NCBI GenBank assembly: GCA_964017185.1
Contig: OZ024876.1
Location: 12,463,726 to 12,527,725, forward strand
Source of the DNA: Rugalucina vietnamica
Lineage: Eukaryota; Mollusca; Bivalvia; Lucinida; Lucinidae
Reading direction: 5' to 3'
Length of the DNA stretch: 64,000 nucleotides
Both the position numbers and the translations under genes were made by a program. Below are positions 19,801 to 58,876 of this stretch, one piece after another. The notes under the pieces were generated by a model, which was given only the letters and a program-made list of their open reading frames with translations, was not told the origin of the DNA and did no database searches. Each line of letters starts with the position of its first letter. Positions within the stretch are counted from its first letter, which is position 1.

Positions 19801-22800
19801 TAAGATACAGATCAGCTTAATTACAACTGTGCAGTTTATCATTGTCTTTGTCTTACTGTATAAATACATGTACATGTATTACTGTTCATTGAGACAAGTT
19901 TTGTTGTAACACAGCTTTGGACTCTTCCTGTATTGTGTAATAAGCCATATCATGTAAAGATGCCTTAGTGAATTTATATGTGATCAGCAGTGCGAATTAA
20001 CTTGCAGTAACTTGCCTTTTTAGTACAAAACAAAGATTGAGATCAGCTTTGTGACAGCAGAGCAACTTATAAATCTGTCTTTGTTTTCATTGTATAGAAA
20101 ATATGCTCAAAGGCAAAAGTTTAGTCAGTGAAAATACATGTAAAATCCCATTTGGACTTTACATTCTTGTGGCTTCCTTGATAGTTTTGAATTGAAATTA
20201 CCAGAATACCAGTAATGAAGCTGCATTTCCTGGCTAAAGTTTTCGTCTGAGTGTAGATCAGTACAGGTCTACTAGTCTACAGCCTGTTAAGATAGACTTT
20301 TTTTGTGCCCTGACACATATGAATAGAACAAGACAGTGTACTGAAGACAAGAAAACAGATGCATGTATATTTAAATGATACGCTCATTCGGATTGGTCTG
20401 AAAAGTGTTGGTTAACGGAAAGTAAACAAATAATTAACCAATATTGTTACTTGTACAACTTACATTAACAGATTTAATCACAGTTTTGTCTCCATAGACT
20501 CTGTAGGCCTGTAGGATAAACCATAGTTAATCACCCACAAACCTTAAGTTTTTTTATGTTATTTTAAAATTAACAAAATTAAGTAATTAAATATATTGAA
20601 GAGGGAAATGCCTCGGGAGAAATGATATTGAGTGTGAAATGGTAGAAGCAACGTAACATGGGTGGTAAACATGATTACGAAAACATGCCCATGCAATAAA
20701 CACATTTTTTGAGCTTTAAAAATTGAAAATTTTCAGCGAAAAAAAATGATATTTTTCCTATTTTTGCTAAAAACATAGATTGTGGGTACCGTTAGAACGG
20801 CCTCAAGTACCCACAATCTATGTTTTGAAACAAAAATTACAAACCCCAGTTTTTCTATATAAAAGCGGGGTTTAAGGGGGTATATACATTGCATGGACAT
20901 GTTTTCCTGATGAACATTGCAGAAATTATGCTCCTAATTTTGTTCCAATGGTTCATCCAGGAACTCTCAAGGTTGTGTAGGGCTATGCTGTTTGCCTTTG
21001 TCCCATATATAGGACACCAAGCTTAAAAGCTTAAATCTCTTATCCAACTTTCATAATTTTTTCAGAGAAGAAGACTGGTGTTTGCAAGACTGACCTTGAC
21101 CCCAGGAGACCAGCTGACAGGTCAGCTGTGTTGGCATGGGAACAGGTATTAAAGTTGTGTTGTGTGAAAACTTAGAGTCTGGTTTTCGACCTGGTCTGAT
21201 TCAAGTACAGCCTGTACATACAACCATAGAATATTGCTTTGGGTTTTTAGAAAGAAGAGATAATATTGTGCCTTTTTTGAACAAAAACAAAGGTGCTTAA
21301 CAATTACTGCTCATCTGATCATTGCCTGTGAACGTGTTTTCACTTATGCAATACAGCAGCTTTTGACATGACATATATTCTGAGGTATTTTTTTTTTTAT
21401 TAAATAAGCTCATTGAGAAAATATGCACTTGCAGCATACAAACTTTTGTGGCAGCTGTAAAAGTTGAAAATTTACAGTTGATTTTTTTTTAGTTTTCTTA
21501 TTTTTACCCAAAACATGTATTGTGTACACTTTAAAACAACCTTGTTAAGGCGGTTGAGGTTCTGATAAGTACATGTACCCACAATCTACCTCTTTTGAAG
21601 CAAAAAATGAAAAAAAAAAACCAACAAAACAAATTATATCCCTGTACACTTCAGTATTATGGGTGTACAAGGAATTTCAAATAAGGACTTAATATGTGTG
21701 GTCACTGAATATACATGTTTGAAGATTTACCTGTATAAAAAAGCATTGTTTGAAGATTTACCTGTATAAAAAAAGCATTGTTTATTTGTGTCAACAATGT
21801 TACATTCTTTAGCATGCTTTATCATGGCGCTGTTGAATATGTTGCAAATACATGGATTTGTGTAATGAGTGGTCAGCTCAGAGCAAATGAGTCATTTTTC
21901 AGTTACTTTCGGGTTGAAATCGTGGGACCCATTTTTCTTAGCTTTTTGAAAAAAATAAGCCAGGTTTTTCGATAGTCATTAATATAAGAACTTGAAACAA
22001 AAGGCATGTCATCTTTCAGCAAACAATAAGTGCACACGAGCCGACCCAAGTTACCCACTTTGAGAATTTTCCAGAAAAAATATGTTTACACTAACTTTTC
22101 CCAGAGAAATACTTTTCCATGACCCCAAAATAATCCTTAATTTTTCAGATTATATATCCTAGACATGTAAGCTTTGTGTAATTTTTATTCGAATGCATTC
22201 CATTTTCCAGGAAATGGGTCCCGCGAAAACCAGTTACATTTCCAATTCTAAACCAAGCTATTTGAAATAGCTATTTAAAGCTATTTAAAACAATAATTAT
22301 ATTGAGTCATTGACGTCTATTAGCAATAAATGCACATTATCATTTGATTGACAGATTCAAAAAAGGAAACACGCAAGTAAAAGGTATTTTATTTACATAC
22401 TTTTACTCCAAAATGTAGATTGTGGGTACTACTTGTTGGAACCGCCATGCCAATGGGGTTCTATTTAAATATATACCTAATTACCTATCACTTATGTTTT
22501 GAGCAAAAATTAATAATAATAAAAAAAAAAATATTCAAAGCAAACAAGACAATTATCACACATGTTAAAAATCTTTATTTATTTCATAAGCATGTTTGCA
22601 TATTAATGTTTTTTATTTTCAGAGAAATACCTGTTTTCTCCCTGAAGATCTGAAAAGTTTTTACCTCACTACTGATGGTTTCCAGCTCACCTGGAGTGTG
22701 AAAATTGAAAGTAAGTTACCATTACGAAAACACACCCATGCAATATATAGATTTTTTATATTGTAAAAATTGAATTTTTTTAGTTGAAATTTTTTGATAT

Positions 22801-25800
22801 TTTCTTATTTTTGTTCAAAACATAGATTGTGGGTACACGTTAGAACCGCCTTGTCGAGGCGGTTCTAACGAGTACTCACAATCTATGTTTTGGAGCAATA
22901 ATAAGAAAAATAGATTTACTCCTGCATAACCCAGTGTTGCTATATAAAATTGGGGTATAGGGGTGTATATATTTCACGGACATGTTTTCCTGATGCCATG
23001 GGCACTGCTTTGGTTGTATGTCTCAGGGGCAGAAGTTAGGCCTCATTTCCAATGGAACCTGAGGTACATTTTTCCCAGTCTGGGGAAAATCCCTTTCACA
23101 GCAGAAAATATTTAAACAGTTCTATAAAAGGTTAAATTCAATCTTTGCTGTTTGAAATGATGTTTAACATTGATTATAAGGTATTATTTAATGATTCAAA
23201 GTTAATTCACTATGTCTGTGGAAAATATCAGTTTTGAATGTTATAATTCAGGGATTATGTCAGTAATTTTCCCAATCAGAAAGGTCCTAGGTCCCCTTCC
23301 CAAAATTGTCAAAAATTCCTGATAGAAACAGTACTGAGGCTCTAAAGGCAAGTGGCGAAAAGGTTGTAATGAAAAAAAAATCTTACTTATATCGGGATGA
23401 TCTATCCTCAGATTATAGATCTACTTTGTACTGAAATCATTGTAAATTGTGCAAACATTTTATTGCTCATTTTCCTTGTGTGTCCCTGATCATCTGGGTG
23501 AGGTATTACCGGGGGGCGGGGGTCTTAACTCTCTGCTCACTGATAGAAATATGACATAGAAATATGACTTTTCTTTCCAGCTCCCTAAATGGTTTTCCTA
23601 ATATCCCTGCTCCCTTTCATTAAATCCCCAAGAGTTAATGCTTGCACCACAGATCTCTGAAAATAAATGGGCCTTCTCCCTAGATCCTCAAACCCCTTGG
23701 CAGAGCCACAGGGTGAGAAAGCTATCAGCTTTTAAAATTATTGGCACAATAGGAGCAGAGTGTCATGCCATAGGTGGTGCCTTATTACATATTATTATTA
23801 AACATTATAGTAGATTTAGTGTTGCATGGTAGAAAATGTCATACACCCTAAAATGTGGATGAGTTAATGAGGCTATACCATTTTCTGCGGAAACAGGTAA
23901 TACATGTAGCAATAAATAATTGTAATCAGTCCCCATGTACTTAAGCGCCTGGGATAGCTTTGCCCATTGAAATATGCAATAATGTTTAAAACATTTTGGA
24001 AAATATGTCATAATTTCTAAAATGTGGACAAGTCAACTCTATTTGTATATAATGGTTTTCATATAACAATTTATACATGATTATTGAATTTTGGGCTTTT
24101 AGTGCATTAGGAAAACTCGCCTTTGCATTCTAAATTATTGAGATTTTTTCATCTGTAAAAATTAAAAATTTCCATAGAATTTTTTTTTTACTTTTTAATA
24201 TTTTAGCTCAAAGCATAGGTTGTGGGTACATGTTAGTACAAGAGTACCCACAATCTATGTTTTGGATCAAAAATAAGAAAAACAGATATACCCCTGTAAA
24301 CACATGGTAAACCCCAGTTTCATTATATAAAAGTGTGGTATGAGGGGTTATACATTTCAAGAATATGTTAGCATGATGAATATTTGAGCCGCCTCGTGGG
24401 AAAACCAACAATGTGGTTTCCGAACAGGTCTGACATAAACCGGCCTGTATTGCTACAGAAGCAGGCTAGAAGCATGAAATTTTGGAGTTAAGTAGAGGAG
24501 GAATTGTACTATCCGAGTAGCGAAAACAAAGGCGCTGATCAGCTTCGCGGTTACCGCGAAGCTGATCTGCGCCTTTGCTTTCGCCTATGCAGATTGTTGG
24601 TTTTCCCATGGGGCGGCTCATTTACTGGCTCGTTTAGGTCCTGCTGTGGAGGAACAAGGTGAAGGGAAACCAAAAGCACCTGTAGTAAATGGTGATTTTT
24701 ACTGTTTGTGTTTGCATGAGCTTTGTGAAGGACAGAATGATGCAGTAATTAGCTTTGGCTGGTTGTTCAGATTAATTTTATTTTGAGGCTTCGCATGAAA
24801 AAAACCCAACAATTATGAATTCAAACAAGGTCCCACACAAACCAGCCTGTACATTCACAGAAGAGAGTTAGATGCTTGAAATTACGGATTTAAGTAGGGG
24901 AGGCATTGTACTATCTGTGTACTGAAAACAAAGGTGCTGATCAGCTGTGCAGTTACTGCACAGCTGATCTGCACCTTTGGTTTCATACATGCAGATTGTT
25001 TGCTTTCTGATGCAGCGGCTAATTCATTAGTTCTTGTTAAGTTGTTAAAGTTCAAATTGCATGTTTTTCAAATATACTTTTATTTTTCTTAAAATATAGA
25101 GCAAGAAAAATCGCATTTCAGAAAAAAATCTTACTTTGTAAACAAAAATACATGTATCAGCTATTTTACAATGTAATTTTTTCTTGATAATGTCTTTTGA
25201 CAAAATACTTTAATAAAACAGCCAAAGTTATTTAATGTTTTCTGTAATGATAGACAATCATGTAGGACTGATAAAATTTTATACTGTAGAACTGGAGGAC
25301 ATTTCTAGGTGGACACTTACATAGCAATGTACACTTCAGACCCGTTATAACGCGCTGGTCGGGGTCCACAAGTCGCATGCGCGTTATAGGTGAGGCGCGT
25401 AATGCAAATCTACTGAGTCGGACCAGGCTGATCGCAGTTTCTGTAGTGTATTGGTGGGTGGGGAACCTATACGACGTGTGTATTGGCTTAACCGAGCTTG
25501 GTGGTTTATCGCAGAGTCCTTGTATAATGGAATAAACAAAAGTGAAGTATTGCGTGTTCCACAGTTTTATCAGTTAAAAACGATCTACAATGATAAAATT
25601 TGTTTATTTACAACGTACGATTTTATGTGAAAAGAGCGTCCATGACACCGGGCTTATGTTGCTGTAGTATTGTAGAGTTCCGCCTTTGACTTATTGGCGC
25701 ACCCGGATATTTAACACAGACAAGAGTCTTTTGCCGATACCGTATTTACAGTTATTTTAATTCGCCTTTCTTAATTGAATTTTCTGATCGGATAGAATTA

Positions 25801-28800
25801 TACAAGACATAGGTGTCCCAATACTTAGACAATCTTTGGTTTGTGTCGCCGTCGAAAATGAGCAACGTTGCGTAACAGGTGTCATCAATAGCCTACAGCA
25901 ACCTGTGTTTACGGTCTCGTTACGGTCTATCGATAATCCCCTAGCTCATTGGGCTTATTTTCACAACTTTTATGGCTTATCACACCGTATTAGCGGCAAT
26001 TTCGAACTCGGCATACAATCGTTAAACTCGGCATAATTTTTGTTCAGCTGTATTCTGGTAAGGTTAGTATTTGATTGTTTTCATTGGAACTGAGAGTCTG
26101 TCGGTAACCGTAAGTAGGTCATAAGTTAAAAGTGATGTATAAAATATACCTGTGTTCTTCTGGTCCTACAATTCCAAGTGTAAAGTCTGGAAAATAACAT
26201 TTTTCTCTTTGATGCTTCACTTTTTATACTCAATCCTGTCAAATATGCTCCATTTCGTGACTTTATAAATAAATATCAATCCTTTCACAGGCAAAAATAT
26301 AAACTTAAGCCATTTACAGTCCTTTTGTGCGTATTAAATAGATTCGATCTGATAAGTGAAAAGCGCAGCGTCTGTTTTAAAAGATGACGTGATGATACTT
26401 TGGCAATCGGATAACTCTAGTCATGACAATCGTAGAACGCTGAAATAAAAGCTATTTGGCAATCGGTGAACGCGTTTTGTTTCTTGCGGTTTTCCCCAGT
26501 TTTTCTCATTTTTAGAGCCTACCATGTTTCTTTTATGACGAATAATGTAAAATAGAACAGTAATGACGACTCTGTTTTATATTCGAGTCTGTATAGGAAT
26601 ATGTTTTAATGAGTTGTACATGTATTCTGTTGGTAAATTCGTTTATCTCAATTGTGGCGACTTGTCCTACCGAACCCTTTTTAGGCCACTGTGTCAGCAT
26701 GTCATGTGATCAATTATAAACGCATTAACGCACTATAATGGTACTACCTGTCTAGTCGTGTGGCAAGGACATTATTCGTCCCTTTTAAAGTCTTTTTTCT
26801 CAAGAGTTTTCCCATTTTCATTTTCGAGAAGACCACGTTGGCAAACATCGCGTGTCTTTAAAAATATTAAAAATGACATAACATTGTAAAAATGACATAA
26901 CATTGTAGTTTTTATTCCATTTTACGTTCCTTTCAAGATTATTTCACTCATATAGAGACTATGAAATTCAGTAGGTGGGCTAAAACGGGAGACCCCCGGG
27001 ATAGACCACCTGACAGACCCGTAAGCAGAACTTGGCTTATCCTACTTGTGACTCGAGTGAGGCTCGAACCATCAGCTGATAAACAGTAAATATTATTTTC
27101 CTTATCATTTCACAGAAACATACATTGTAGGTACTCATTTGAACCGCTTCAAGGAGGCGGTTCTAACGAGTACCAACAATGTATATTTTGAGCATAAATA
27201 AGAAAAACAATACAACTTTTCATCTAAACATTTTCATTTTTGCACCCAAAACTTTTCAGTGTATTTGAATAGGCATTTTTTTCGTAATGAACATATGATG
27301 GAACATTTGATAACATATTTCAACTTTTGAATTTCAGACTGATCATGGATCAAACCGTACAGGCCTTAGATCTATCCTTCCTGGATGTCTCAATGATAGA
27401 CGTGTCCCCACCAGCCTCCCCAATATTACCAATCTCAAGTGAAGACGCTACCTCCAGTATCAGTTTAAATCCACCAGACGTTACCTTGTTAACCTCAAAT
27501 ATTGCACAGTCACCAGACCCAAAGCCAGACATCGGTGAATTCTCAAACGTCAGTGAAGCCACTACCTCCAGTATCATTTTAAATCCACCAGACATTGCCT
27601 TATTAAACTCCAATGTCTCACAGTCATCAGCCATGAGTGAAAACTCCAGTGAAGTTGCTACCACCACTACCGTGTGTTCATCGGACATTGCGTCTGCAAT
27701 CCAATGTGATATATGCAACAAGTTTTTCAGTAGCAAGTCAACTCTAAACAGGCATTTAAAGAGGCATGATCCCGGTTGGAAATATAATTGTAAGACTTGT
27801 AACAAAGTTTATAAGACACAGGCTGCATTAGATATGCACAAATCTGTAAATCATCCTGGAAATCATCTTTGTGTCACATGTGGCAGAACTTTTTCCAGGA
27901 AAAATGGTCTCACTGACCATAGTCTGAGACACAAAGAAGCGACCACGTACCGGTCGCCATCTAAAAGACTTCTCTTGTGTCCATTTGAAAATTGTGGGAA
28001 GAAATTCTTAAGGAAAACACTATATCAAGATCACTTGAACGTCCACTCAAACCTTAAACCGTATTCATGTGACGTCTGCCAGAAGCAGTTCAGTAGTAGA
28101 TATCGCCTCAATTTTCATAAACGTGTGTGTACCGGGGCCTTAAAGTTTATTTGTGACGTATGTAACATTAACCTAACAGATCCAGATGCGTTAAAGAGAC
28201 ACAAGGAGGGAAAACATGGGTTAAAAACGCATGCTTGCTTGTGCGGCAAGCATTACAAGTATTACAGCTCTTTATATAAACACAAGAAGGAAAAGAATCA
28301 CTGATCAAATAACTGTGCAACACAATTTATACCTCTTCGAAACCCCTTTTCTGGTGTTTTTATAAACATTTCCACCAAAACCGTTTGATGATTATCCCTG
28401 GAGCGACTTATTTAATTTTCTCACCATTAAGTTGCATTTTGGAATAGACGTGCTAACATAATGTCAACTTAGCTGAATGCTTTATTTTTGCTTTTCGTAT
28501 TTTTTGGTAAGTTACACACTTTTTGCGCTGAATTTTGCTGATTATTTTAGCGCAAAAAGTGTGTAAAGTGCACACACACACTTTTTGCGCTCAGCTTTAA
28601 AAACACCAAATGTTGGTGCCTCATAAAAATGCTTAATAAAAAACTGAGCACATAAATTGTGTCTGTAGTGAGTACTTACACTATGCGCTAAAAAGTTCAG
28701 TGCTCAAAGTTTTTTGTGTCTCAACTTGAATGATAATCTTTTTTTATAAATTAAATTCAATATTTTTCTTATTTCTGCTCAAACTATACATTGTTGGTAC

Positions 28801-52800: not shown

Positions 52801-55800
52801 GTCGGAATGGAGCCACTCCTTCATGGGTATAATCTATTAGGGAACAAATGTGTCTTCTCAAGGTTTAGGACACATTACGGCACTCAAGTGGGGTACGAAC
52901 CTACAACCTTTCTATTGGAAGTCTGACGCTGTACCTGTACGCCACTGCCTCCCTGTTTTTAAGATAGAGATTCCAAATAGTTTATGAAAACATTGGAACA
53001 AATACCGTATTCATTCTAATTAGAGCACAAGCTCCAATAAGGGCACACCCTGGTCGTTTCCGAAAAACGTGCATAAGCGCACACTGCTCGACCAGCATAT
53101 TGGTTTTTGGACAATGTTTACTACAAAAATAACGTATCAACCACATTAAAACTTAACCTTAAATGGTCAAACATTAGTTTGAAACGGTTTGAACACTTAA
53201 ATGGCATCATCAATGATTATTTTGACATTTTTATTTTATCAGTTAATGTGTTGTTTTGGTTTGTAGTGTGCGCTTATTAGAACGACATTCTTTTACCTTA
53301 ACTTTAAATCATTTTGAAAAATGTACTGTGCGCTAATTAGAAAGAATACGGCCATGCCGGTAAAATACATACATGTAAATATTTTTTCTTAAATAATTTT
53401 TGTTAAAATCGTTTCATCATGGTTTGACACATGTAGTTATTTTGACTTTATGCTTATACACCTGTAGGTGGTACAGACCCTAAAATTGAAATTTGGTTTC
53501 TGGACCGAGGCTTGAGATGGCACTACATAGCAGATTCTTTCATGGCATACTACAGACTAATGATAATGCATCTAGGACTACCCCAGTGGCAGTATGCTTT
53601 CACAGATATAGGACTGAGCCCACAGGCTAAAGTAAGTTTGAATTTCTTTTATTAATAAGTATTATTTCGAAAACATGTCAAAGCAAGGTATAAATATTAA
53701 CGAAACTTCTATTGGCCACCAATATTCACCTGACATTGATTTTTATGCATTTAATAAACTGAAATGCGATTATTATTATTTTTTTATTCAGTTTTACATC
53801 CCTTCCAAGATTATTTCAGCACATATGAGATGGGCCAATCAGTAGGTGGGGTGAAAACGGGAGAACCCCGAGAAAAAACACCTGACACACCCGCAAGCAG
53901 AACTTGTCTCACATGTGGCCAGAGCCGGGCCACACCAGACACAGCGGCGAAATGATCGAGTGATTAAGAAACAGGGCTCTTAACCGCTCGGCCACGGGGG
54001 CCGCCAAAATGCGATTAGCAGTGTACATAATATAAATAATGATCACTAGTAAATCGTTCAATGTCGGTTAATTAGCTCGCCTTCACGAAGCTAAAGTTTT
54101 TCATTAAAGTTTTTAGAAGTCTATATCTCTTGAACATGTTGATGGATCAAGTTGATACTTTGCATGTTGGTAGATATTGGTCTGAAGTTTTATGCAGTAC
54201 CATCGTGGTCCACCCTGGGTGACCGTGAGGTCAAGGTCACGGACTTAGAAATTTTATGTTAAAGTTTTTAGCTCGCCTGTACGAAAGTACAGGAAGAGCT
54301 ATTGCAATCACCCCGGCGTCGGCGTTGGCGTTCGCGTTGCTCAAATGTTAAAGTTTTTGATTAAAGTTTTTATAAGTCTATATCTCTTGAACATGTGGAT
54401 GGATCAAGTTGATACTTTGCATGTTAGTAGATATTGGTCTGAAGTTTTATGCAGTACCATCATGACCCACCCTGGGTGACATTGAGGTCAAGGTCACAGA
54501 CTTAGAAATTTTGTGTTAAAGTTTTTGGTTAAAGTTTTTATAAGTCTATATCTTTTGAACATGTTGATGGATCAAGTTGATACTTTGCATGTGAGTAGAT
54601 ATTGGTCTGAAATTTTATGCAGTTCCATCAAGATCCACCCTGGATGACCTTGAGGTCAAGGTCACATACTTAAAAAAATTGTGTTAAAGTTTTTGGTTAA
54701 AGTCTGTATCTCTTGAACATGTTGATGGATCAAGTTGATACTTTGCATGTTGATAGATATCATTATTGGTCTCAAGTTTTATGCTATGCCATTATGACCC
54801 AATTGGATAACCTTGAGGTCAAGGTCACAGACTTGGAAATTTTTGTGTTAAAGATTTGGTTAAACTTTTTCTAAGTATATATATCAAGTATATATATGTA
54901 TAAAGATGATACTTTGCATGTTTGTAGATATTGGTCTTAACTTTTATGCTGTACCATCACAACCCACCTGAGTGACCTTGGGGTCAAGGTCATGTGTCAT
55001 AGATTTTGATAGATTTATTGGCAAAGAACAAGTCGGGCGAGCTACGCTGTCCTGCGACAGCTCTTATTCATTAAAGATTTAAGAAGTCTATATCTCTTGA
55101 ACATGTTGATGGATCAAGTTGATACTTTGCATCTCTTGAACATGTTGATGGATCAAGTTGATACTTTGCATGTTTGAAGATATTGGTCTGAAATTTTATG
55201 GAGTACCATCATGACCCACCCTGGGTGACTGTGAGGTCAAGGTCACAGATTTAGAAATTTTTGTTGAAGTTTTTCGTTAAAGTTGTTAGAAATCTATATC
55301 TCTTGAACATGTTGATGGATCAAGTTGATACTTTGCATGTTTGTAGATATTGGTCTGAAATTTTATGCTTTTAAGACCCACCTGAGCGACCTTGAGGTCA
55401 AGGTCACGGGTCATAGATTTTGATAAATTTAGTGGCAATGCACAAGTCAGGCGAGCTACGCTGTCCTGTGACAGCTCTTATTTTGATAATGGAGTGCGCG
55501 AATAAATTCAATGGCTCAGCTGTTTGTGTGGCCACGGGTTCGATACCCGTATTGTGTGATTATTTTTAGCTTCACTTCATTTTTTTTTCAATTTTGCATA
55601 GTGTATTTTCTTTTTTTATTACAAAAGTCCTCATGCCACATAAATGACTTTCCAAAACACTACCGGCCCGACAAACAAGGTGTCAAAGCAGGAGATCATT
55701 TTTATCATCTGAGTTGGAAGATAAAGATTTTTGTCATGTTTCATTGACATTTCAGAAAAACAGAGCCGCGGATCTGGGTCATTTGCAGACGATGTTATAT

Positions 55801-58800
55801 TATATTATATAATACACATATTTTGAAAGGTGTTGAAGAAATGTAATCAAGTGAAGACCAAAATGAGCATAGAGAGATCTTCAGTGTTATGCCTCACTTA
55901 TTCTATTTAAAAAGCTCATTTTATCACAGATAAAGTCAAACTAATGACACACATTTTACTGTGTATTATGGTTTGGTTTCGCTTACAGTTCTATATAATT
56001 TTATCGTATAAGTTTCAGGTATAACTAATGTCATTGTCAAGATTTTGAGTGCTTCTTTTCTTTGTACATTATTCACGAGACTCTTATATTTTAGCAATGG
56101 TTTAACATGTATGCTCCCTTGCGGTTTGAGCTGGATACAGAACTGAGTGTGATATCCACTGGGGTGGAGCCCAACATTTCCACGACACAGCTAGATGTTG
56201 GGAAAGTATTCAAAGGCAAAACTGATAAAAAGTAAGTAAACTTGTCACAAAATCATGACGATAAAAAGTAAGGATAGAATGCACATAGATTGTACAATTC
56301 ATATCTTAAATTGTTGAATTTAAAATCCCAACCTGGACACCAGGCTGGAAGTAAAGTACAGTACAAAACATCACCCTTTTAAAACACACACGATGAGCAA
56401 GATGAATAGCTCTTTCCCAGCAAGGTAGCCATCTGGCTAACCTCAACCAGATACAAAAGGGACAAGAACAACTTAGAGGTAGACAAAATAACCAGAAAAC
56501 ATGAAGATAAATCACAGCAGAACCAACTTGGAACGATCAGTAAAGAAATAACTGGATGGTTCAAATTGATTTTCTTTGTTGTGTTAATTGTTTGGTTCTA
56601 AAAGAAGCTTCCCAGCTCCTTAACAAAACATGTCAGCAATGTGATGAAGCAAAAACGAGGACTGAACAGTAATGTTAAAATACCAGGGCAAAAGAAAGTC
56701 AGTTTGAACCCCGGTGGATGAAGAGGTGGGAAAAGTAAATTGACAATTAGGTACTTATACTTAGAAAACATATCGTAAGCCGAATGAGCAGCTATTCCCC
56801 AATAGGCGGCCACTCAGTTACTGGAACTTAAATAAAAAATATGAAAACATACATAAGTTCAAACAGCACAAAAATTCAACTCCAAAAAATAAAACAAATA
56901 AAATGGAACTTTAACAGAAGTATGGCCTTGGAACGATCAGTAATATAAATTTACTGGGGGCTAAATAAATCATGATAAGCGCCATGATGAATAAAAAACG
57001 AGGACCCACAGACTCAGTAAGCTGTCCGACGATGGGGATCTGGTTGTAGTAAGAAAAATTTACATGTATGAGCTGCTGCATCAGAAAAACAACAATTTGC
57101 GTATATCTGGCCCTTTGTTTTTTGCATCGTAGATAATACAGAGCTTTTTCTCATTAAATACACAGTTTTAAGCTTCTTATTATTCACTGTACCAGGTTGT
57201 TGCTTTTTCATGTGAAGTTTGATATTGGTTGTATTTTCCAGGAAGCCTGTTCCAGCGCAGACCCAATCACAACAGTCCCAAAGTTTGAGAAAGAAACCAG
57301 CACTTCCATCAGCTAAGTATGTTACATTTCATAAATCCAATCAGCCAAGTTAGACGAAACTCGTAAGAAAGCCTGTCTTTTACAGTTGTAATACCCCACC
57401 CACGCCGCCAAAACAAAGTTTTAAGGGGTATTTGTTTTCACGCCAGTCTGTTTGTTTATGCATTCGTCCGTGCGTCCGTAAGTCCATAACACTTTTTTTT
57501 TTTTTAATATTTTGAAGACCCATTCATGGAATTTCATGAATTTTCGCAAATCATCTTGATATTTATGAGGCAAATACTTATGTAAAAAAAAAAGATTTAC
57601 TGCTGTGACATCAACTTCATACAGCATTCATACACCATAGACTTTAGGTTCCATGACATCGGACAGCTGTGTCCAAGCCAGGGATTGGGCTTGAGGTCAA
57701 AATCTAGATCATCCTAAAATATTGTTTGTCTCTATTTCTAAATAGATATGACTTAAAAAGATGGTCAGTCATCTTTTAAAGTTGTGACACTGACACGTGT
57801 GTCATAACGTTAAGGATAGTGATTTTGTCTTTACTCCAGTGATTTTGTCTTGTATCTCATCACTCAATTATGTAGATTTCCATACTTCTTAAGATTATGA
57901 GTGAGTATGACCAGACCTTTGATCCCAAAGAACTTATAGGTCACTAAGACCTAAGTTCATGGTTCAGTGATTATGCCTTGTATTTCATCACTCAGTTACT
58001 ATATGAGCATATTTCTTTCACAATATGAGTGAGAATGACCAAGCCTTTGACCCAAAAGAAGTCTTAGGTCAATGTGACCTTATTTCATAGTTCAGTTGTT
58101 TTGCTTTTATCTCAGCACTCATCTGGTATACTTATTTCACAAAATGAGTGAGTGTGACCTTTGACCCCAAAGTCATTATCGGTCACTGTGACCTAATATC
58201 ATGGTTAAGTGTTTTTGTCTTATATCTTAAACTCAGATAGTATATGAGCATACTTTCTTCACAGTATGAGTGAGTATGGCCAGACCTTTGACCCCATAGT
58301 AGTCTTGAGTCAGTGTGACCTAATTCCATGACTCAGTGATTTTGCCTTATATCTAGACACTCAGTTAGTATATTTTCATTCTTCTTTTATATTATGAGTG
58401 AGTATGACCACACTTCTTTTAAAATATAAGTGAGACGTTTGATCCTAAGTAAGTTATAGTCACTATGACCTAATTTCATAGTTCAGTGGTTTTGCCTTAT
58501 AGCATCAAGGCATAAAACTGTATGAGCATGATGCTTTGGAATACATGACGAGTTAGTCCTCATGTCTGACAAAGCCAGAAGAACATGAAGAAGTCGAGCA
58601 CGTTGTCATGCGACAACTCTTATTTCAAAACCTAGGTCATGGGTACACGTGAGAACCGCCTCGCCACGTTAGAACTGCCTCGCCAAGGGGGTTTAACGTG
58701 TTGCTTCCATTTATCAATCTATGTTTTGAGTAAAAAAATAAGAAAAACTCAATTTTTTTCTACAACTTAGAAACAATCTGTTTATTACATTGTCGTGTTC

Positions 58801-58876
58801 TCTTTCTAGGAATCCTCAACAGGCAGGCCTAAAGACAAGTGGTTCCTCTTCACAGTTGTCAAAAATGTCAAAATAA
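10774..58876 (+). CDS. TPGS2: Tubulin polyglutamylase complex subunit 2, nine coding exons
   Basis: Coding join: 10774-10840, 21066-21145, 22623-22710, 36245-36385, 42260-42361, 53468-53631, 56095-56231, 57242-57316, 58810-58876; 306 residues (human protein 300). TPGS2 is a non-catalytic subunit of the TTLL1 tubulin polyglutamylase complex, which adds glutamate chains to tubulin tails in axonemes, centrioles and neurons; the protein contains a SMI1/KNR4-like fold. Diagnostic segments seen: LAWEQRNTCFLPEDLKSFYL, TTDGFQLTWSVKIE, SLADLDCDSDVEDESS, KIFELDPCDSFGKVCLVY, EIWFLDRGLRWHYIADSF, LGLPQWQYAFTDIGLSPQAK. The C-terminus is basic and rich in Gln, Ser and Lys, as in orthologues. All eight introns have GT/AG ends and phases agree throughout. 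About 98% of the 48.1-kb span is intron, filled by repeats. Confidence 0.93.
10911..11033. mobile_element. Left arm of an inverted-repeat element split by a LINE
   Basis: GCACCAGTCATTTG at 10911 is the reverse complement of CAAATGACTGGTGC at 14518-14531. Beyond the tips, GGGGAAGGGTGGGGAATAG pairs with the inverse CCCCGCCCTTTCCC region near 14495. The LINE 11034-14356 lies between the arms, as if inserted into this element. Confidence 0.65.
11034..11600 (+). pseudogene. LINE endonuclease domain, N-truncated
   Basis: APE endonuclease part: NKKTHFVASWYRLPVDGHLP, LIHVLGDFNFRDIVWLDR, NTLDLILTSLPGQFADIH and LSDHDIVSGTLKIAIPP. Asp/Asn of GDFN and the SDH triad are present, but the N-terminal catalytic Asn/Glu region is missing because of 5' truncation. 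Coding ends where the MITE begins. Confidence 0.85.
11606..12130. mobile_element. 525-bp MITE inserted in LINE
   Basis: Terminal inverted repeats: TGATAATGGTTTTCTGCAGA on the left pairs with the reverse complement TGATAATGGTTTTTCGCAGA of the right end. The interior is AT-rich with no ORF. LINE coding resumes just after it (RRKVYRFQKGDYESMR). No clear target duplication. Confidence 0.75.
12136..14271 (+). pseudogene. LINE reverse transcriptase with two frameshifts
   Basis: Three overlapping frames make one RT: 12136-12440 (VYRFQKGDYESMRAETLKFA), 12440-13070 (KALGPDELHPRVLKELAVEL, RSYRPVSLTCIPCKLLEHIV) and 13075-14271 (AFDTPPHELLKSKLFSYGIG, SGVPQGTVLGPLLFSLYIND, RLFADDCVCYRE, FFPQTIRDWNDLPDSLVSS). 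The shift near 13076 is a one-base loss compared with the minus-strand sister copy (TTTTGGAC versus TTGTCGGAC). The last 398 codons are continuous. FADD is intact. Confidence 0.9.
14333..14356 (+). repeat. (ATTCAG)n LINE 3' tail
   Basis: About four hexamers at the LINE 3' end; the same tail terminates the minus copy near 6768-6793. Confidence 0.85.
14357..14531. mobile_element. Right arm of the inverted-repeat element
   Basis: Ends with CAAATGACTGGTGC, the inverse of the left tip at 10911. It is followed by ACTATCCGCATGG and a solo CCACAAGACGTTTCCCCCC (14552-14570), a fragment of the GACGTTTCGCCCCC element seen at 9134. Confidence 0.6.
14600..14890. repeat. Tandem ~145-bp repeat (TGACCTTGACCTAAT), left segment
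   Basis: Two units carrying TATCTTCTGAAC, ATTTGATGGATTCT-like and TGACCTTGACCTAAT motifs. The same family resumes at about 19450-19740, beyond the satellite-bearing insertion. Confidence 0.7.
15050..16470. repeat. Satellite element 1: about nine 151-bp units
   Basis: Opens with a hairpin around TATAGCCCGGCTTTGGAAAA and closes near AGCGAGGCTATAGTC. Units share TTTCGTTTCCGCTCAATATC, CAACATTGACAAGATCTAGC and CGGCCCTTGATTGACGTCAG. The overlapping minus-strand frames of about 83 codons are by-products of the period and are not genes. Confidence 0.85.
16471..16869. other. Spacer between satellite elements, no gene seen
   Basis: Apparently single-copy AT-rich sequence. A 64-codon minus frame has no recognisable features. 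Confidence 0.5.
16870..18458. repeat. Satellite element 2: about ten 151-bp units
   Basis: Same unit as element 1, opening with TATAGCCCCGCTTTGAAAAA. Neighbouring minus-strand frames start exactly 151 nt apart (17231, 17382, 17533 as lower ends), which fixes the period. The block is interrupted at its right side by a foldback insertion and continues at 18873. Confidence 0.88.
18459..18872. mobile_element. Insertion with long hairpin inside the satellite
   Basis: About 410 bp unlike the satellite. The part 18747-18860 is an inverted repeat with arms of roughly 50 nt (TGTCAGGTATGGATAGACAA against its complement; GGTCACAATTTGGCATCAC inside). The rest has a CACCTCGGTCGCACC block and a CpG-bearing segment. 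No coding frame. Confidence 0.7.
18873..19315. repeat. Satellite element 2, continued, with terminal motif
   Basis: Nearly three more 151-bp units, then AGCTCAGAAGTGGGGCTATA and TCAGATCCTCTGACAATTCT, matching the right end of element 1 (TCAGATCTTCTGACAAATCT). Confidence 0.8.
19463..19740. repeat. Tandem TGACCTTGACCTAAT family, right segment
   Basis: Diverged units with TATCTTCTGAACCAATGGAT and CAAACTTGCA. A G13 run follows near 19736-19749. Confidence 0.65.
19750..20672. other. Intron 1 sequence, no feature seen
   Basis: AT-rich, apparently single-copy intron. No ORF with a domain. Confidence 0.5.
20673..20912 (+). mobile_element. Hairpin MITE family H1, copy 1
   Basis: Terminal repeats TTACGAAAACATGCCCATGC and its partner GCATGGACATGTTTTCCTGA. 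Central hairpin: ACATAGATTGTGGGTAC paired with GTACCCACAATCTATGT. The right half has CTATATAAAAGCGGGGTTTA. This copy shows the family layout most clearly. Confidence 0.85.
21066..21145 (+). CDS. TPGS2: TPGS2 exon 2
   Basis: Acceptor TTTTTTCAG, donor CAG|GTATTA. Encodes residues 23-49, including DLDPRRPADRSAVLAWEQ. The RPADRxxxxxWEQ pattern corresponds to the PAERxxxxxWEQ of vertebrate TPGS2. The exon ends in phase 0. Confidence 0.9.
21414..21672 (+). mobile_element. H1 MITE copy 2 (diverged)
   Basis: Hairpin arms AAACATGTATTGTGTACA and GTACCCACAATCTACCTC remain. The loop has degraded and the outer repeats are weak. Confidence 0.55.
22383..22615 (+). mobile_element. H1 MITE copy 3, ending near exon 3 acceptor
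   Basis: The left arm AAATGTAGATTGTGGGTAC and later TTATGTTTTGAGCAAAAATT mark the hairpin; the right arm is badly decayed. The usual distance from hairpin to right terminus places its end within about 15 nt of the exon 3 acceptor (AG at 22621-22622). Confidence 0.5.
22623..22710 (+). CDS. TPGS2: TPGS2 exon 3
   Basis: Acceptor TTTATTTTCAG, donor AAA|GTAAGT. Encodes RNTCFLPEDLKSFYLTTDGF then QLTWSVKIE, the most recognisable part of the SMI1/KNR4-like domain. A hairpin MITE ends near its acceptor and another begins 10 nt after its donor. Confidence 0.95.
22721..22995 (+). mobile_element. H1 MITE copy 4, starting 10 nt after exon 3 donor
   Basis: Full copy: ATTACGAAAACACACCCATG at the left, a hairpin with GAACCGCCTTGTCGAGGCGG at its tip, and CATGTTTTCCTGATG at the right. 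The donor GT is at 22711. Confidence 0.85.
22996..24107. other. Intron 3 sequence, no feature seen
   Basis: AT-rich with no recognised repeat; short frames lack domain character. Confidence 0.45.
24108..24378 (+). mobile_element. H1 MITE copy 5 (short hairpin)
   Basis: GGTTGTGGGTACATGTTAGT and GAGTACCCACAATCTATGTT pair around a nearly absent tip. TATAAAAGTGTGGTATGAGG lies in the right half. Confidence 0.75.
24386..24619. mobile_element. GAGCCGCC hairpin MITE family H2, copy 1
   Basis: Ends GAGCCGCCTCGTGGGAAAAC and CCCATGGGGCGGCTC. Internal hairpin GCTGATCAGCTTCGCGGT / ACCGCGAAGCTGATCTGC sits between AAAACAAAGGCGC and GCGCCTTTG. Confidence 0.85.
24784..25020. mobile_element. H2 MITE copy 2 (diverged)
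   Basis: Same layout with worn ends; the hairpin is AGCTGTGCAGTTACTGCACA GCT-like, replacing the CG-rich tip of other copies, with both arms changed together. Confidence 0.7.
26058..26900. other. Possible intron of the zinc-finger gene, no other feature
   Basis: TTCTG|GTAAGG at 26057/26058 is a plausible donor for a non-coding first exon that could splice to the acceptor at 27337. Nothing else recognised. Confidence 0.3.
26905..27075 (-). repeat. SINE-like repeat, family 2, copy 1
   Basis: Shares TTCAAGATTATTTCA, AGTAGGTGGG and ACGGGAGA-like motifs with 53790-54005. Its right part, read on the minus strand, has box-B-like GGTTCGAGCCTC. Confidence 0.55.
27090..27289 (-). mobile_element. H1 MITE copy 6, inverted
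   Basis: Hairpin AACATACATTGTAGGTACTC / GAGTACCAACAATGTATATT. The right side ends TTTTTTTCGTAATG, the complement of the usual left terminus, so the copy lies in reverse. Both arms carry TACATTG/CAATGTA instead of TAGATTG/CAATCTA. Confidence 0.7.
27345..28304 (+). CDS. C2H2 zinc-finger protein, 319 aa, inside TPGS2 intron 3
   Basis: Likely DNA-binding nuclear protein; orthology not recognised. Residues 1-118 are acidic and Ser/Pro/Thr-rich with two near-identical segments (about 32-57 and 70-95: LNPPDVTLLTSN and LNPPDIALLNSN). Residues 121-317 hold seven zinc fingers: CDICNKFFSSKSTLNRHLKRH, CKTCNKVYKT, CVTCGRTFSRKNGL, CPFENCGKKF (C-x4-C), CDVCQKQFSSRYRLNFHKRVC (H-x3-C variant), CDVCNINLTDPDALKRH, and a final C-x-C finger with a long His spacing. 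I chose ATG 27345: it lies 8 nt after a good acceptor (GAATTTCAG, 27329-27337), so an upstream non-coding exon is probable. Frame is uninterrupted; TGA at 28302. Same strand as TPGS2, flanked by H1 MITEs. Confidence 0.75.
   Translation: MDQTVQALDLSFLDVSMIDVSPPASPILPISSEDATSSISLNPPDVTLLTSNIAQSPDPKPDIGEFSNVSEATTSSIILNPPDIALLNSNVSQSSAMSENSSEVATTTTVCSSDIASAIQCDICNKFFSSKSTLNRHLKRHDPGWKYNCKTCNKVYKTQAALDMHKSVNHPGNHLCVTCGRTFSRKNGLTDHSLRHKEATTYRSPSKRLLLCPFENCGKKFLRKTLYQDHLNVHSNLKPYSCDVCQKQFSSRYRLNFHKRVCTGALKFICDVCNINLTDPDALKRHKEGKHGLKTHACLCGKHYKYYSSLYKHKKEKNH
28512..28566. repeat. Palindrome ACACACTTTTTGCGC
   Basis: ACACACTTTTTGCGCTGA pairs with TTAGCGCAAAAAGTGTGT around a short AT-rich loop, about 200 nt after the zinc-finger stop. 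It could act as a 3' UTR stem or be a small MITE. Confidence 0.6.
28734..28961 (+). mobile_element. H1 MITE copy 7
   Basis: Arms ACTATACATTGTTGGTAC and GTACCCACAATGTATGTT, with GAACCGCCTCACCGAGGAGG at the tip. Shares the TACATTG/CAATGTA arm variant with copies 6 and 8. Confidence 0.75.
29130..29354. mobile_element. 225-bp foldback MITE
   Basis: Almost entirely inverted repeat: outer TACAGTTTGGTTCCAAAAGT pairs with the inverse of ACTTTTGAAGCCAAGCTGTA; inner TTTGTTGTCCTGAGTAGAAT pairs with ATTCTACTCAGGACAACAAA. No ORF. Single copy in this window. Confidence 0.8.
29355..31550. other. Intron sequence with a diverged repeat at about 30840-31060
   Basis: GTAACTGAGTGACCACC and GGGAAATAGCTGATC at about 30860-30890 are related to repeats at 51480-51900 and, inverted, 56690-56850. 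No coding domain recognised in the remainder. Confidence 0.45.
31558..31637. repeat. (TCTG)n/(TC)n microsatellite
   Basis: Imperfect run of TCTG and TC units. Confidence 0.85.
31901..32080. mobile_element. 180-bp palindromic MITE
   Basis: Outer GTTGTTCAAAGCTAACGA pairs with the inverse of the right end (CACTTTGAACAAC). The centre is ATGAGAGCAGATTCTGCTCTCAT-like, a perfect palindrome at about 31969-31991. AT-rich. Confidence 0.75.
32081..33350. other. Intron sequence, no supported gene
   Basis: A 48-codon frame at 32171 sits between splice-like sites but has no recognisable similarity. GCCGAGTTCAACGACTG at 32933 echoes the inverted-repeat motif at 33353. Confidence 0.4.
34352..35511 (+). mobile_element. 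AGCTCACCTGAGCC element, copy r1
   Basis: Starts AGCTCACCTGAGCCAAAGGC and ends CTCAGGTGAGCATTTACAGG. Contains two units of about 450-600 bp with GGTCACATGACCAAGATGGC and TGATGAACTAGAC-type segments. A tandem of about 29 bp (CATAATATTCATACATT) lies at 35385-35450. Non-coding. Confidence 0.8.
35953..36235 (+). mobile_element. H1 MITE copy 8, ending 7 nt before exon 4 acceptor
   Basis: Left TTACGAAAACTTGCCCATG, right CAGACATGTTTTCCTGA; TTTTCAG follows and exon 4 starts at 36245. The hairpin tip is GAACCACCTC / GAGGTGGTTC, a paired change from the GAACCGCCTC / GAGGCGGTTC of other copies. Confidence 0.85.
36245..36385 (+). CDS. TPGS2: TPGS2 exon 4
   Basis: Acceptor CCTGATTTTCAG, donor TCAG|GTAATA. 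Encodes GPISVGRMYINSINKLLRIG, then an acidic tail DLDCDSDVEDESS. A hairpin MITE ends about 7 nt before the acceptor AG. The last part of the exon plus donor is the founding unit of the minisatellite that fills intron 4. Confidence 0.95.
36338..36900 (+). repeat. Minisatellite derived from the exon 4/donor junction, block 1
   Basis: Exon 4 ends with AGCTGACCTTGACTGTGATT CAGACG..., then GTAAT. About six further degenerate copies follow, with GCTGACCTAGACTGTGATTC, GAGGATGAATC or AAAGATGAATC, a GGTAATGTAT- or GGTATTGTAT-like donor, and ATCCATYCCAAGCTWCATGT. Period is irregular, about 70-125 bp. Confidence 0.8.
36902..38301. mobile_element. 1.4-kb mariner-like non-autonomous element inside the minisatellite
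   Basis: Ends CACCTCGACAAAAGTTTAGC and the inverse of GCTAACCTTTTGACGAAGAG agree at 18 of 22 positions and are flanked by TA on both sides (36900-36901, 38302-38303), as expected for Tc1/mariner. The interior holds a direct duplication of about 235 bp (37625-37860 and 38002-38240; both contain GGCTTTCGTCGCCGGTTTTA). No transposase frame. Confidence 0.8.
38302..39040 (+). repeat. Exon 4-derived minisatellite, block 2
   Basis: Continues block 1 after the mariner-like insertion: six or more units such as TTAGCTAAGCCATCCTAGAC, TTGACTTGAAAGATGAATCA and TTAGGTATTGTATATATATC. More diverged units run to about 39030, with a further trace at 41760-41880. Confidence 0.8.
39045..40200. mobile_element. 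1.16-kb element dense in TACG motifs
   Basis: Bounded by CTGTCACACT and AATGTGACAG. The interior is crowded on both strands with ACGTATGTG, TACGTCACA, GCGTATC and CGTACATACG words, mirrored between the left and right parts. No transposase frame. The short clustered words look like multiple protein-binding sites of a transposase. Confidence 0.65.
40214..41735 (+). mobile_element. AGCTCACCTGAGCC element, copy r2
   Basis: Start AGCTCACCTGAGCCATTAGG and end CAGGTGAGCGTTTACAGGAC. Three units of about 445 bp (CCATAATATTCAAAC near 40768, 41213 and 41660), each with GGTCACATGACCAAGATGGC. Confidence 0.85.
42260..42361 (+). CDS. TPGS2: TPGS2 exon 5
   Basis: Acceptor TTTATTTAG, donor ACAG|GTATGT. Encodes GFEKPTFDSRCKIFELDPCD and SFGKVCLVYRESKTG. 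A GAGCCGC MITE starts 26 nt after the donor. Confidence 0.95.
42388..42577. mobile_element. H2 MITE copy 3 beside exon 5 donor
   Basis: GAGCCGCATTGTGAGAAAAC ... CTCGCGTTGCGGCTC. Right flank ATGTATGTAAGGATC resembles the donor region GGTATGTAAGATT left of it, suggesting a long, now imperfect target duplication that copied the 5' splice site. Confidence 0.75.
42638..42810. mobile_element. H2 MITE copy 4
   Basis: GAGCCGCCCCATGGGAAAAC ... CCCACGAGGCGGCTC; opposite orientation to copy 1. Flanked by AAAT on both sides. Confidence 0.8.
43099..43315. mobile_element. H2 MITE copy 5 (diverged)
   Basis: GAAAACCAACAATCTGCATT, AGCTGATCAGCGCCTTTGTT and a worn right end. Confidence 0.65.
43640..43862 (+). 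mobile_element. H1 MITE copy 9
   Basis: AAAACATTGATTTTGGGTAA and CGAGAACCCACAAGTAATGT form the arms; GATATAAAAGTGGGTTGTAA lies in the right half. Confidence 0.7.
44198..44431. mobile_element. H2 MITE copy 6
   Basis: GAGCCACCTCGTGGGAAAAC ... CCCTCGAGGCGGCTC; hairpin CAGCTTCGCAGTTACTGCGA. ATTT on both sides. Confidence 0.85.
44800..45085 (+). repeat. Degenerate short tandem repeat (~30-45 bp)
   Basis: Repeats of ACATGTGTAAACAGTCTGCT and ACATACAAGTT with variable spacing. Confidence 0.65.
45086..45367. mobile_element. H2 MITE copy 7 with 23-bp flanking duplication
   Basis: Element 45109-45344: GAGCCGCATCGTGAGAAAAC to TTGCGTTGCGGCTCA, hairpin CAGCTTCGCGGTAACCGCGA. A perfect 23-bp direct repeat (containing ATATATGTGGCACAAATGAA) stands at 45086-45108 and 45345-45367. 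Confidence 0.85.
45855..46061. mobile_element. H2 MITE copy 8 (diverged)
   Basis: ACAACAATGTGGGGTTCCGA, AGCACTGATCATCTGTGCAG and GTTGGCGGCTC. Confidence 0.65.
46327..46579 (+). mobile_element. H1 MITE copy 10
   Basis: GTTACGAAAACTTGCCCATG ... GGACATGTTTTCCTGATG; hairpin TTAGATTGTGGGTACAAG / GGACCCACAATCTATG. Confidence 0.85.
46580..47110. other. Intron 5 sequence, no feature seen
   Basis: AT-rich; nothing recognised. Confidence 0.45.
47111..47930 (+). mobile_element. AGCTCACCTGAGCC element, copy r3 (worn start)
   Basis: About two units with GACCAAGATGGCCACCATG; the end is CAGGTGAATG and CAGGACCATTGGTCCT. Confidence 0.7.
47931..49389. other. Intron 5 sequence, no gene seen
   Basis: A CTTGTTATATTGAAGACC / GTTATAATGAGGG fragment near 48255-48300 resembles decayed transposon ends. 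No coding domain. Confidence 0.4.
49390..50520 (+). mobile_element. H1 MITE copy 11, split by an r4 insertion
   Basis: Left part 49390-49461 (TTATGAAAACATGCCTATGC); right part about 50410-50520 (TTTTTGCTCCAAAAACATAC to GGACATGATAGCCTGATG). The AGCTCACCTGAGCC element between is the younger insertion. Confidence 0.7.
49462..50408 (+). mobile_element. AGCTCACCTGAGCC element, copy r4
   Basis: AGCTCACCTGAGCCGAAGGT at the start; GTTAACAGGTCCTCTGGTT at the end. Two units. A short tandem (CTTGTGATTTTCYCCCAATA) at 49760-49850. Confidence 0.75.
50521..51469. other. Intron 5 sequence, no feature seen
   Basis: The 133-codon minus frame at 50559-50960 has no recognisable domain and is treated as chance. 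Confidence 0.4.
51470..52370. repeat. Diverged tandem repeats, intron 5
   Basis: Two ~230-bp units with GAAATAGCTGCTC, ACGATAT and CCCACCTCGGTTTTTGGAGT (51500-51850); then ~185-bp units with CTATAATGTCTCAGAT and TGGCCACTCT (51915-52250). Related sequence lies inverted at 56690-56850. Confidence 0.6.
52800..52955 (-). repeat. tRNA-derived SINE, degenerate
   Basis: On the minus strand a tRNA-like head (GGCAGTGGCGTACAGGTACA, box B GGTTCGTACCC) is followed by a TGTCC-rich body, as in the better copy at 62365-62517. Confidence 0.6.
53003..53351. mobile_element. 350-bp MITE ending in CCGTATTCATTCTAATTAG
   Basis: Left CCGTATTCATTCTAATTAGA pairs with the inverse of CTAATTAGAAAGAATACGG. Subterminal GCGCACA and GCGCTTATTAGAACGA motifs. 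No ORF. Confidence 0.75.
53468..53631 (+). CDS. TPGS2: TPGS2 exon 6
   Basis: Acceptor ACACCTGTAG, donor AAA|GTAAGT. Encodes residues 160-214, containing EIWFLDRGLRWHYIADSF, YYRLMIMHLGLPQWQYAF and GLSPQAK. This is the best-conserved exon of the family. Confidence 0.97.
53790..54005 (-). repeat. SINE family 2, copy 2, with tRNA-like head
   Basis: Minus strand from 54004: GGCCCCCGTGGCCGAGCGGT TAAGAGCCC, a Leu/Ser-tRNA-like 5' half with box A. The body matches 26905-27075. Confidence 0.65.
54073..55485 (+). mobile_element. TAGCTCGCC tandem-repeat element with a nested copy of itself
   Basis: Units of about 160-180 bp with TTGAACATGTTGATGGATCA and GAGGTCAAGGTCACAGACTT. The outer copy opens at 54073 and closes with GGCGAGCTACGCTGTCCTGT at 55449-55485. 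An inner copy opens at 54270 (AGCTCGCCTGTACGAAAGTA) and closes at about 55065 with the same motif. Confidence 0.75.
55486..56094. other. Intron 6 end, no clear feature
   Basis: GGTTCGATACCCGTATTGTG near 55538 is box-B-like, but no full tRNA fold was found. Confidence 0.4.
56095..56231 (+). CDS. TPGS2: TPGS2 exon 7
   Basis: Acceptor ATATTTTAG, donor AAAAA|GTAAGT. Begins QWFNMYAPLRFELDTELSV and ends LDVGKVFKGKTDKK, matching the QWFxMYxP and KVFKxK landmarks of TPGS2. Confidence 0.96.
56232..57241. other. Intron 7 with inverted repeat traces
   Basis: At 56690-56850 the minus strand carries the GAAATAGCTGCTC / CCCACCTC repeat of 51470-51850. No gene. Confidence 0.45.
57242..57316 (+). CDS. TPGS2: TPGS2 exon 8
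   Basis: Acceptor TATTTTCCAG, donor GCTAA|GTATGT. Encodes a low-complexity basic linker, KPVPAQTQSQQSQSLRKKPA, typical of the disordered TPGS2 tail. Confidence 0.88.
   Translation, partial: EACSSADPITTVPKFEKETSTSIS
57390..58625 (+). mobile_element. Tandem-repeat element with ~120-bp units, intron 8
   Basis: Opens near CACGCCGCCAAAACAAAG; five to six units with GAGTGAGTATGACCAGACCT, TTTGACCCC and GTGACCTAATTTCAT; closes with CGAGCACGTTGTCATGCGAC. Confidence 0.7.
58635..58802 (-). mobile_element. H1 MITE copy 12, inverted, abutting exon 9 acceptor
   Basis: GGGTACACGTGAGAACCGCC, ATCTATGTTTTGAGTAAAAA and AAACAATCTGTTTATTACAT follow the order of the inverted family. The terminus (TCGTGTTCTC) is 5-6 nt before the acceptor AG at 58808-58809. 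Confidence 0.7.
58810..58876 (+). CDS. TPGS2: TPGS2 exon 9 (stop codon)
   Basis: Acceptor CTCTTTCTAG. Encodes NPQQAGLKTSGSSSQLSKMS K and stops at TAA (58874-58876). The phase matches exon 8. An inverted hairpin MITE abuts the acceptor. Confidence 0.9.

Follow-up and report, generated by a model that had tools for sequence, protein, structure and literature searches.

In the genome assembly of the lucinid bivalve Rugalucina vietnamica (GCA_964017185.1), a stretch of 64,000 nucleotides (nt) of contig OZ024876.1 (positions 12,463,726 to 12,527,725, forward strand; hereafter the window) carries the gene TPGS2 and, along it, copies of a short repeat, here called H1. H1 is a palindromic family of ~279 bp resembling miniature inverted-repeat transposable elements (MITEs), with tens of thousands of copies. 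Across the genome, H1 termini, above all the left terminus, occur in excess on the intron side within a few tens of nucleotides of splice-site motifs, and this bias of the left end toward the exon is present whether the gene runs with or against H1. Moreover, the sampled motifs near H1 adjoin real coding exons more often than motifs farther away, and at least one H1-bearing intron predates the element. On balance, H1 probably inserts with a bias toward exon edges and with a polarity that places its left end toward the exon, the splice sites being the landing zone of the element and not its product.

Splice-site motifs outside the ends of H1

The preliminary description of the window, which had noticed H1 ends abutting TPGS2 splice sites, called for the distances between H1 ends and splice sites to be measured genome-wide. 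This was carried out as motif counts, with GTAAGT (donor) or TTTCAG (acceptor) counted at fixed distances outside exact H1 termini and the same motif 60-78 nt out serving as control, and an excess was present at the left end for donors and acceptors and, more weakly, at the right end for acceptors. As the excess is genome-wide, contact with splice sites is not peculiar to TPGS2.

For left ends that follow a donor, GTAAGT occurred 109 times at 3-18 nt, 80 times at 19-34 nt, and 50 times at 63-78 nt, giving a 2.2-fold excess of near over far motifs (one-sided P = 1.7e-6), with an excess also in the 19-34 nt zone (P = 0.005). Right ends that follow a donor showed no excess (163 near vs 174 far, P = 0.74). 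For acceptors, right ends preceding TTTCAG yielded 417 near and 370 far motifs, corresponding to a ratio of 1.29 after correction (P = 2e-4) and 1.13 raw (P = 0.05), and left ends preceding an acceptor, the arrangement found when the gene has the opposite orientation, yielded 208 near and 147 far motifs (1.62 corrected, P = 4e-6; 1.41 raw, P = 7e-4). The acceptor correction (14/16) allows for the terminal TG, which blocks 2 of the 16 near offsets in most copies. The two ends differed for donors (Fisher P = 1.6e-5) as well as for acceptors (P = 0.045). Repeated sequences among the hits, visible in the far and middle lists of the left end and in the far donor list of the right end, were kept in the counts, and because of those in the far lists the near/far donor ratios of both ends are slightly underestimated. 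An excess tied to sense orientation was also considered and was rejected, as the left-end acceptor counts show a dependence on the left end instead.

Whether the near motifs bound real exons was examined in fetched loci (numbered with L). For left-end donors, these comprised 40 of the 109 near motifs (the first 40 of the list; L059-L078 and L099-L118) and 20 of the 50 far motifs (L079-L098), the latter being 20 of the first 24 after two loci overlapping near loci and two repeat copies had been left out. For right-end acceptors, the fetched loci were L119-L138 from the 417 near motifs and L139-L158 from the 370 far ones, in each case 20 out of the first 21; the exon samples thus cover left-end donors and right-end acceptors. 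A codon-usage score for exon recognition could not tell even the exons of TPGS2 apart from background sequence, and open-frame length and Pfam matches were used instead. A reading frame stayed open for at least 150 nt up to the GT at 24 of the 40 near donors vs 4 of the 20 far ones (P = 0.003). At the near donors, Pfam matches with E < 0.003 were obtained for at least 8 of 40 loci, namely L067 (CXXC), L071 (WD40), L077 (uricase), L108 (PI-PLC-X), L111 (Glyco_transf_7N), L112 (sulfotransferase), L113 (FXa/EGF), and L117 (lipase), with cadherin matches at L100 and L101 (E 0.024-0.028) excluded; here a joint scan covered 46 peptides, 25 of its 58 families being among the matches listed, and 20 of the peptides were scanned individually. 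Far donors had Pfam support in 1 of 20 cases (Temptin_C). Near acceptors were supported in 6 of 20 (L123, CCDC93; L125, Med24; L126, C2H2; L128, MtN3; L134, granulin, 0.0023; L137, kinase, 0.0024) and far acceptors in 1 of 20 (transthyretin), so that near and far motifs differed when pooled (14/60 vs 2/40, P = 0.012) and for acceptors alone (P = 0.046). The Pfam scan took peptides of at least 24 residues, and a locus without such a peptide was therefore scored as a miss.

These flanks also bear on a simpler account, in which the transposase merely prefers a target motif or a step in composition that is frequent at intron edges. The 10 nt outside the H1 ends are indeed AT-rich on both sides (GC content 0.29 left, 0.34 right). 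However, the flanks of 46 full copies are without a clear motif, both GTAAGT and, read from the opposite strand, TTTCAG are enriched in the left flank, the sampled near sites bound homologous exons, and the right flank is nearly as AT-rich yet without GTAAGT enrichment. Since the AT-richness is found on both sides, the left-only donor excess is unexplained by composition, and a plain target preference of this kind appears improbable.

In addition, H1 copies were sampled without regard to exons from 20 stretches of contig C1 holding an exact right end, which contained 40 H1 matches, 30 with the left end and 31 with the right end. With splice sites judged by eye from open flank fragments of at least 30 residues, 4 of the 30 left ends had an apparent splice site no more than 26 nt away (a donor at 16 nt in L053, at 14 nt in L044, and at 26 nt in L040; an acceptor at 19 nt in L052), and by the same reading 0 of the 31 right ends lay beside one. 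The exon is supported in L040 by a Melibiase match (2e-23), in L052 by a claudin match (0.003), and in L053 by paralogy to L052; the copy in L053 is the same as that in L059 of the near-donor set. Two further left ends followed donors at larger distances, i.e., 50 nt in L041 (RhoGAP, 4e-18) and 67 nt for a second copy in L044. A gene-based test on myosin exons came down from 30 loci to 8 distinct H1 copies, which were too few.

The excess might also be produced by the counting itself, if exact termini survived better near splice sites or if duplications of genes or repeats inflated the near counts. Exact termini were the only ones counted, and visibly repeated sequences do occur among the hits, more of them in the far lists and some in the 19-34 nt list. 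An artefact of this kind should affect both ends alike, yet the right end is flat at donors; furthermore, the near exons come from many unrelated families, and the unselected sample leans in the same direction. As such, counting is given only a very slim chance of being the source of the excess.

TPGS2 and the origin of its introns

Within the whole window, H1 copies were located by nhmmer with a two-copy profile (E <= 1e-3), and eight TPGS2 exons (exons 2 to 9) were placed through direct translation; exon 1 was not found, leaving 15 splice sites to be counted. The features are as follows.

20674..20912, + strand: full-length H1 copy 1, upstream of exon 2, with 153 nt between its right end and the exon 2 acceptor (nhmmer)
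21066..21145, + strand: TPGS2 exon 2 (in-frame translation)
21411..21661, + strand: H1 copy 2, decayed, intron 2 (nhmmer)
22365..22605, - strand: H1 copy 3, decayed, antisense; left end 17 nt from the exon 3 acceptor (nhmmer)
22623..22710, + strand: TPGS2 exon 3 (in-frame translation)
22720..22995, + strand: H1 copy 4, full length; left end 9 nt from the exon 3 donor, first base at intron nt 10 (nhmmer)
24105..24379, + strand: H1 copy 5, intron 3 (nhmmer)
27085..27289, - strand: H1 copy 6, antisense, partial, intron 3 (nhmmer)
28756..28959, + strand: H1 copy 7, partial, intron 3 (nhmmer)
35955..36238, + strand: H1 copy 8, full length; right end 6 nt from exon 4 (nhmmer)
36245..36385, + strand: TPGS2 exon 4 (in-frame translation)
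42260..42361, + strand: TPGS2 exon 5 (in-frame translation)
43594..43841, + strand: H1 copy 9, intron 5 (nhmmer)
46326..46579, + strand: H1 copy 10, full length, intron 5 (nhmmer)
49390..50520, + strand: H1 copy 11, interrupted by a nested repeat (49390-49455 and 50414-50520; nhmmer)
53468..53631, + strand: TPGS2 exon 6 (in-frame translation)
56095..56231, + strand: TPGS2 exon 7 (translation; 3' end set by eye at GTAAGT)
57242..57316, + strand: TPGS2 exon 8 (translation; 3' end set by eye at GTATGT)
58616..58803, - strand: H1 copy 12, antisense, decayed; left end 6 nt from exon 9 (nhmmer)
58810..58876, + strand: TPGS2 exon 9, stop codon included (translation)

The gene is presumably TPGS2, a name that goes back to the first reading of the window and to the human protein. 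Its predicted protein matched SMI1_KNR4 in Pfam (E 8e-8), and a search of the PDB with it gave no match. The preliminary description had reported about 12 H1 copies with none toward the flanks of the window, and nhmmer likewise returned 12 copies within 20,674-58,803 and 0 at 1-20.6 kb and 58.9-64 kb. It had further listed four contacts with splice sites as exceeding chance. All four were recovered (copies 4, 8, 12, and 3), the ends lying 6-17 nt from TPGS2 splice sites; as copies 3 and 12 are decayed, their termini are the ends of the profile match and not intact termini. When 12 copies were placed at random into the introns (overlap allowed, the start of intron 1 assumed at 18,500, 100,000 runs), the expected number of contacts was 0.048 at up to 10 nt and 0.098 at up to 20 nt, vs 3 and 4 observed, and 0 of the 100,000 placements reached the observed value in either case. 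The P value from the window is post hoc, the pattern having been spotted before testing, and the independent test is provided by the genome-wide counts.

Introners are elements that give rise to whole introns (Gozashti et al. 2022, PMC9860276), and H1 had been proposed to have generated introns. In that case, exonic insertions of H1 would make new introns, with splice sites recruited beside both ends of the element. H1 termini do lie near donors as well as acceptors, and terminal inverted repeats (TIRs) without target-site duplications (TSDs) are known among introners according to the same source. However, TPGS2 introns 2, 3, and 8 measure ~1.5, 13.5, and 1.5 kb and exceed the ~0.28 kb of H1 by 5-50 times, so that the element is far from being nearly the whole intron, and in 4 of 4 cases in the window a splice site is contacted by a single end of H1. 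Among the 40 near-donor loci, there were 25 in which the right end belonging to the same copy could be found, and a scripted scan detected an acceptor-like site (a pyrimidine-rich stretch followed by CAG or TAG) within 40 nt of that end in 4 of the 25. The control zone 60-100 nt from the right end gave 4 of 25 as well, indicating that there is no acceptor excess at the second end of H1.

The age of one intron is also informative. L052 and L053 contain neighbouring claudin-like paralogs whose exons align over 52 residues with 81% identity and which share the same intron. The L053 copy is in sense orientation and lies 16 nt downstream of the donor, the acceptor there being free of H1; the L052 copy is antisense and lies 19 nt upstream of the acceptor, the donor being free of H1. 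The shared intron, with H1 at opposite edges in the two paralogs, is therefore older than H1 and was hit independently at both edges; in this pair the insertion did not create the intron. Taken together, the long TPGS2 introns, the absence of an acceptor excess at the second end, and the pre-existing intron of L052/L053 do not support the generation of introns by H1, and an introner origin is regarded as highly improbable.

The four acceptor-like sites found by the scan, in L063, L078, L113, and L114, all lie 29-32 nt after the right end, as recruitment beside both ends would have it, a coincidence that is probably due to chance at n = 4. These loci are candidate H1-sized introns and are treated as leads only; by eye, the phase-1 join of L113 runs into a stop codon, and the upstream exon of L114 is not established.

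It had also been suggested that H1 may supply splice signals. The idea of a polypyrimidine tract provided by the element fits copy 8 but does not carry over into a general explanation, since the left end gives the stronger signal and does so in either gene orientation, which makes splice signals borne by the element unlikely as a general cause.

Structure of H1 and other repeats of the window

The genome comprises 1.09 Gb in 47 contigs, in which an exact 13-mer of the H1 right end occurs 33,279 times (16,622 and 16,657 on the two strands), as against only 14 occurrences (4 and 10) of the reversed control 13-mer. The H1 consensus, built from 24 copies, is 279 nt long, starts with CATTACGAAAAC, and has CCTGATG as its final letters. 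Its termini are imperfect TIRs of ~15 nt with the variants CATTACGAAAACATG and CATCAGGAAAACATG, the consensus ends reading CATTACGAAAAC... and CATCAGGAAAAC..., as in MITEs. The central stem has 54 pairs, the folding energy of the full consensus is -139.8 kcal/mol, and copy lengths range from ~215 to 339 bp, so that H1 is also short and highly repeated in the manner of MITEs. For TSDs, no length from 2 to 11 beat shuffled pairs among 46 full copies under a strict excess threshold. Also, a search for empty sites among the fetched loci revealed no target duplication, the paralog pair L052/L053 being the sole useful empty site. At ~4053-4371 of L040 (contig C1), an H1 beside the alpha-galactosidase exon has a 19-nt imperfect direct repeat, CACATACACTC..., at both ends, which is the sole candidate target duplication observed for H1. 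In Rfam, the locus of one H1 copy (L068) had 27 matches, mostly generic hairpins, of which 0 reached the gathering cut-off; the top match by bits scored 54.1 against a cut-off of 200, and the one nearest to its cut-off scored 36.3 against 43.

Compared with MITEs and fold-back elements, H1 is similar in its size of ~279 bp, imperfect 15-nt TIRs, central palindrome, and very high copy number. MITEs commonly prefer genic regions. Unlike them, H1 has no detected TSD (in the 46 copies, at the strict threshold) and shows a polar preference for exon edges. With introners H1 shares being a short DNA element tied to splice sites, the presence of TIRs, and, as in some introner families, the lack of a TSD (PMC9860276); unlike introners, it forms a small part of longer introns, lacks an acceptor excess at the second end, and has at least once inserted into an intron that was already present. 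The survey in PMC9860276 found introners, as far as animals and land plants are concerned, in two taxonomic groups, both animals, and describes some families as carrying TIRs without TSDs. A preferred genomic target is also known from DNA transposons targeting small RNA genes, which are reported to hit defined multicopy genes (PMC3706591), whereas H1 adjoins exons of many unrelated genes. No report of comparable exon-edge behaviour of an element was found by title or start of abstract in the open-licence PMC literature on introners, MITEs, and insertion preference.

Several other repeats were observed in the window. About a dozen tandem units of ~88 bp at 36342-39020 (families D7, D16, D17) copy the 3' part of TPGS2 exon 4 and its donor; the array is broken at ~36900-38300 by other sequence and resembles an exon-edge duplication array within intron 4. 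In intron 3, an intact open reading frame (ORF) of 319 codons (27345-28304, + strand) encodes a C2H2 zinc-finger protein (Pfam zf-C2H2, 2e-20) and is preceded by the acceptor-like TTGAATTTCAG, with the antisense H1 copy 6 ending ~50 nt before this site. By eye, inverted terminal-like ends (CAGACCCGTTATAACGCG... and ...CGCGGTATAGCGGGTCTG) lie ~8.6 kb apart around the ORF (~25325-33948), which is possibly carried by a DNA transposon. A second palindromic repeat family with the ends GAGCCGCC...GGCGGCTC (D20, I4, I5, I22) occurs at 24380-24624, 42630-42810, 44192-44438, and 45102-45327; some of the fetched loci, L112 and L114 among them, contain it as well, as judged by eye. Upstream of TPGS2, a diverged tandem array of ~151-bp repeats (D1) occupies 15115-19301. 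Moreover, two inverted pairs were present, one of 1275 nt with 99% complementarity and 5 kb between its arms (6773-8047 and 13077-14351), and one of 97% (2908-3373 and 11037-11502).

A probable insertion bias, selection as an alternative, and significance

If H1 insertion is biased toward exon edges, the bias would arise at the moment of insertion, with an integration machinery that may favour exon-adjacent DNA, for instance where it is accessible at the border of nucleosomes positioned on exons or where transcription opens it. Integration would be polar, with the left end oriented toward the exon, and exonic insertions would presumably be purged by selection, resulting in a pile-up of copies at intron edges. 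A stronger form of this view, in which H1 transposition actively recognises the DNA or chromatin of exon-intron junctions with a fixed polarity, left end to exon in either orientation, and in which element-sized introns are occasionally possible (e.g., L113 and L114), is put forward tentatively, as a possibility that is rather doubtful at present.

Selection could also have shaped the pattern without any targeting. H1 would then land near exons in both polarities, copies with the right end facing the exon would be lost through disturbance of splicing, and some sense copies near acceptors would be kept by virtue of TTTTCCTGATG at the right end, a stretch with a putative likeness to a branch point or pyrimidine tract. 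The asymmetry between left and right counts is consistent with this scenario, as is the acceptor excess that the right end does show. However, purifying selection alone is not expected to enrich 3-18 nt over 63-78 nt, and the left-end excess in both gene orientations is unpredicted by an account based on splicing signals. Selection without targeting is considered unlikely, though less so than an introner origin, a plain target preference, or a counting artefact.

A number of points weigh against an insertion bias with polarity. The genome-wide counts come from one genome, exact-match termini, and a single hexamer for each type of splice site, and the modest acceptor excess at the right end makes the polarity of H1 partial only, as does locus L024, fetched for a myosin exon, in which the distance from a right end to the following acceptor is 39 nt. 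The long open frames partly run through repeats (near loci L105 and L114; far locus L082), so that their count is not purely exonic, and the Pfam difference for donors alone (8/40 vs 1/20) is not significant (P = 0.12). Among the unselected copies, the difference between left and right ends is weak (4/30 vs 0/31, P = 0.053), and two of the four left-end cases are uncertain, the exon of L044 being without a Pfam match and the donor of L040 reading GTACGA. Neither a TSD nor a clear insertion motif emerged from the 46 full copies. Finally, the origin of the bias at insertion is inferred, insertion and selection are not separated by the data, and orientation-dependent selection after insertion could yield part of the polarity.

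These observations carry a caution, namely that repeat sequence can start only a few nucleotides from true splice sites. With tens of thousands of copies, a single genome allows effects of distance, orientation, and age to be measured very precisely. Provided that the bias originates at insertion, H1 would mark the places in germline chromatin at which exon edges are physically exposed, and it would constitute a testable bridge between MITEs and introners, as a family that lands at exon borders would need little more to start making introns. If the recognition of junctions proves true, H1 would represent an animal DNA element that reads the architecture of genes as it integrates.

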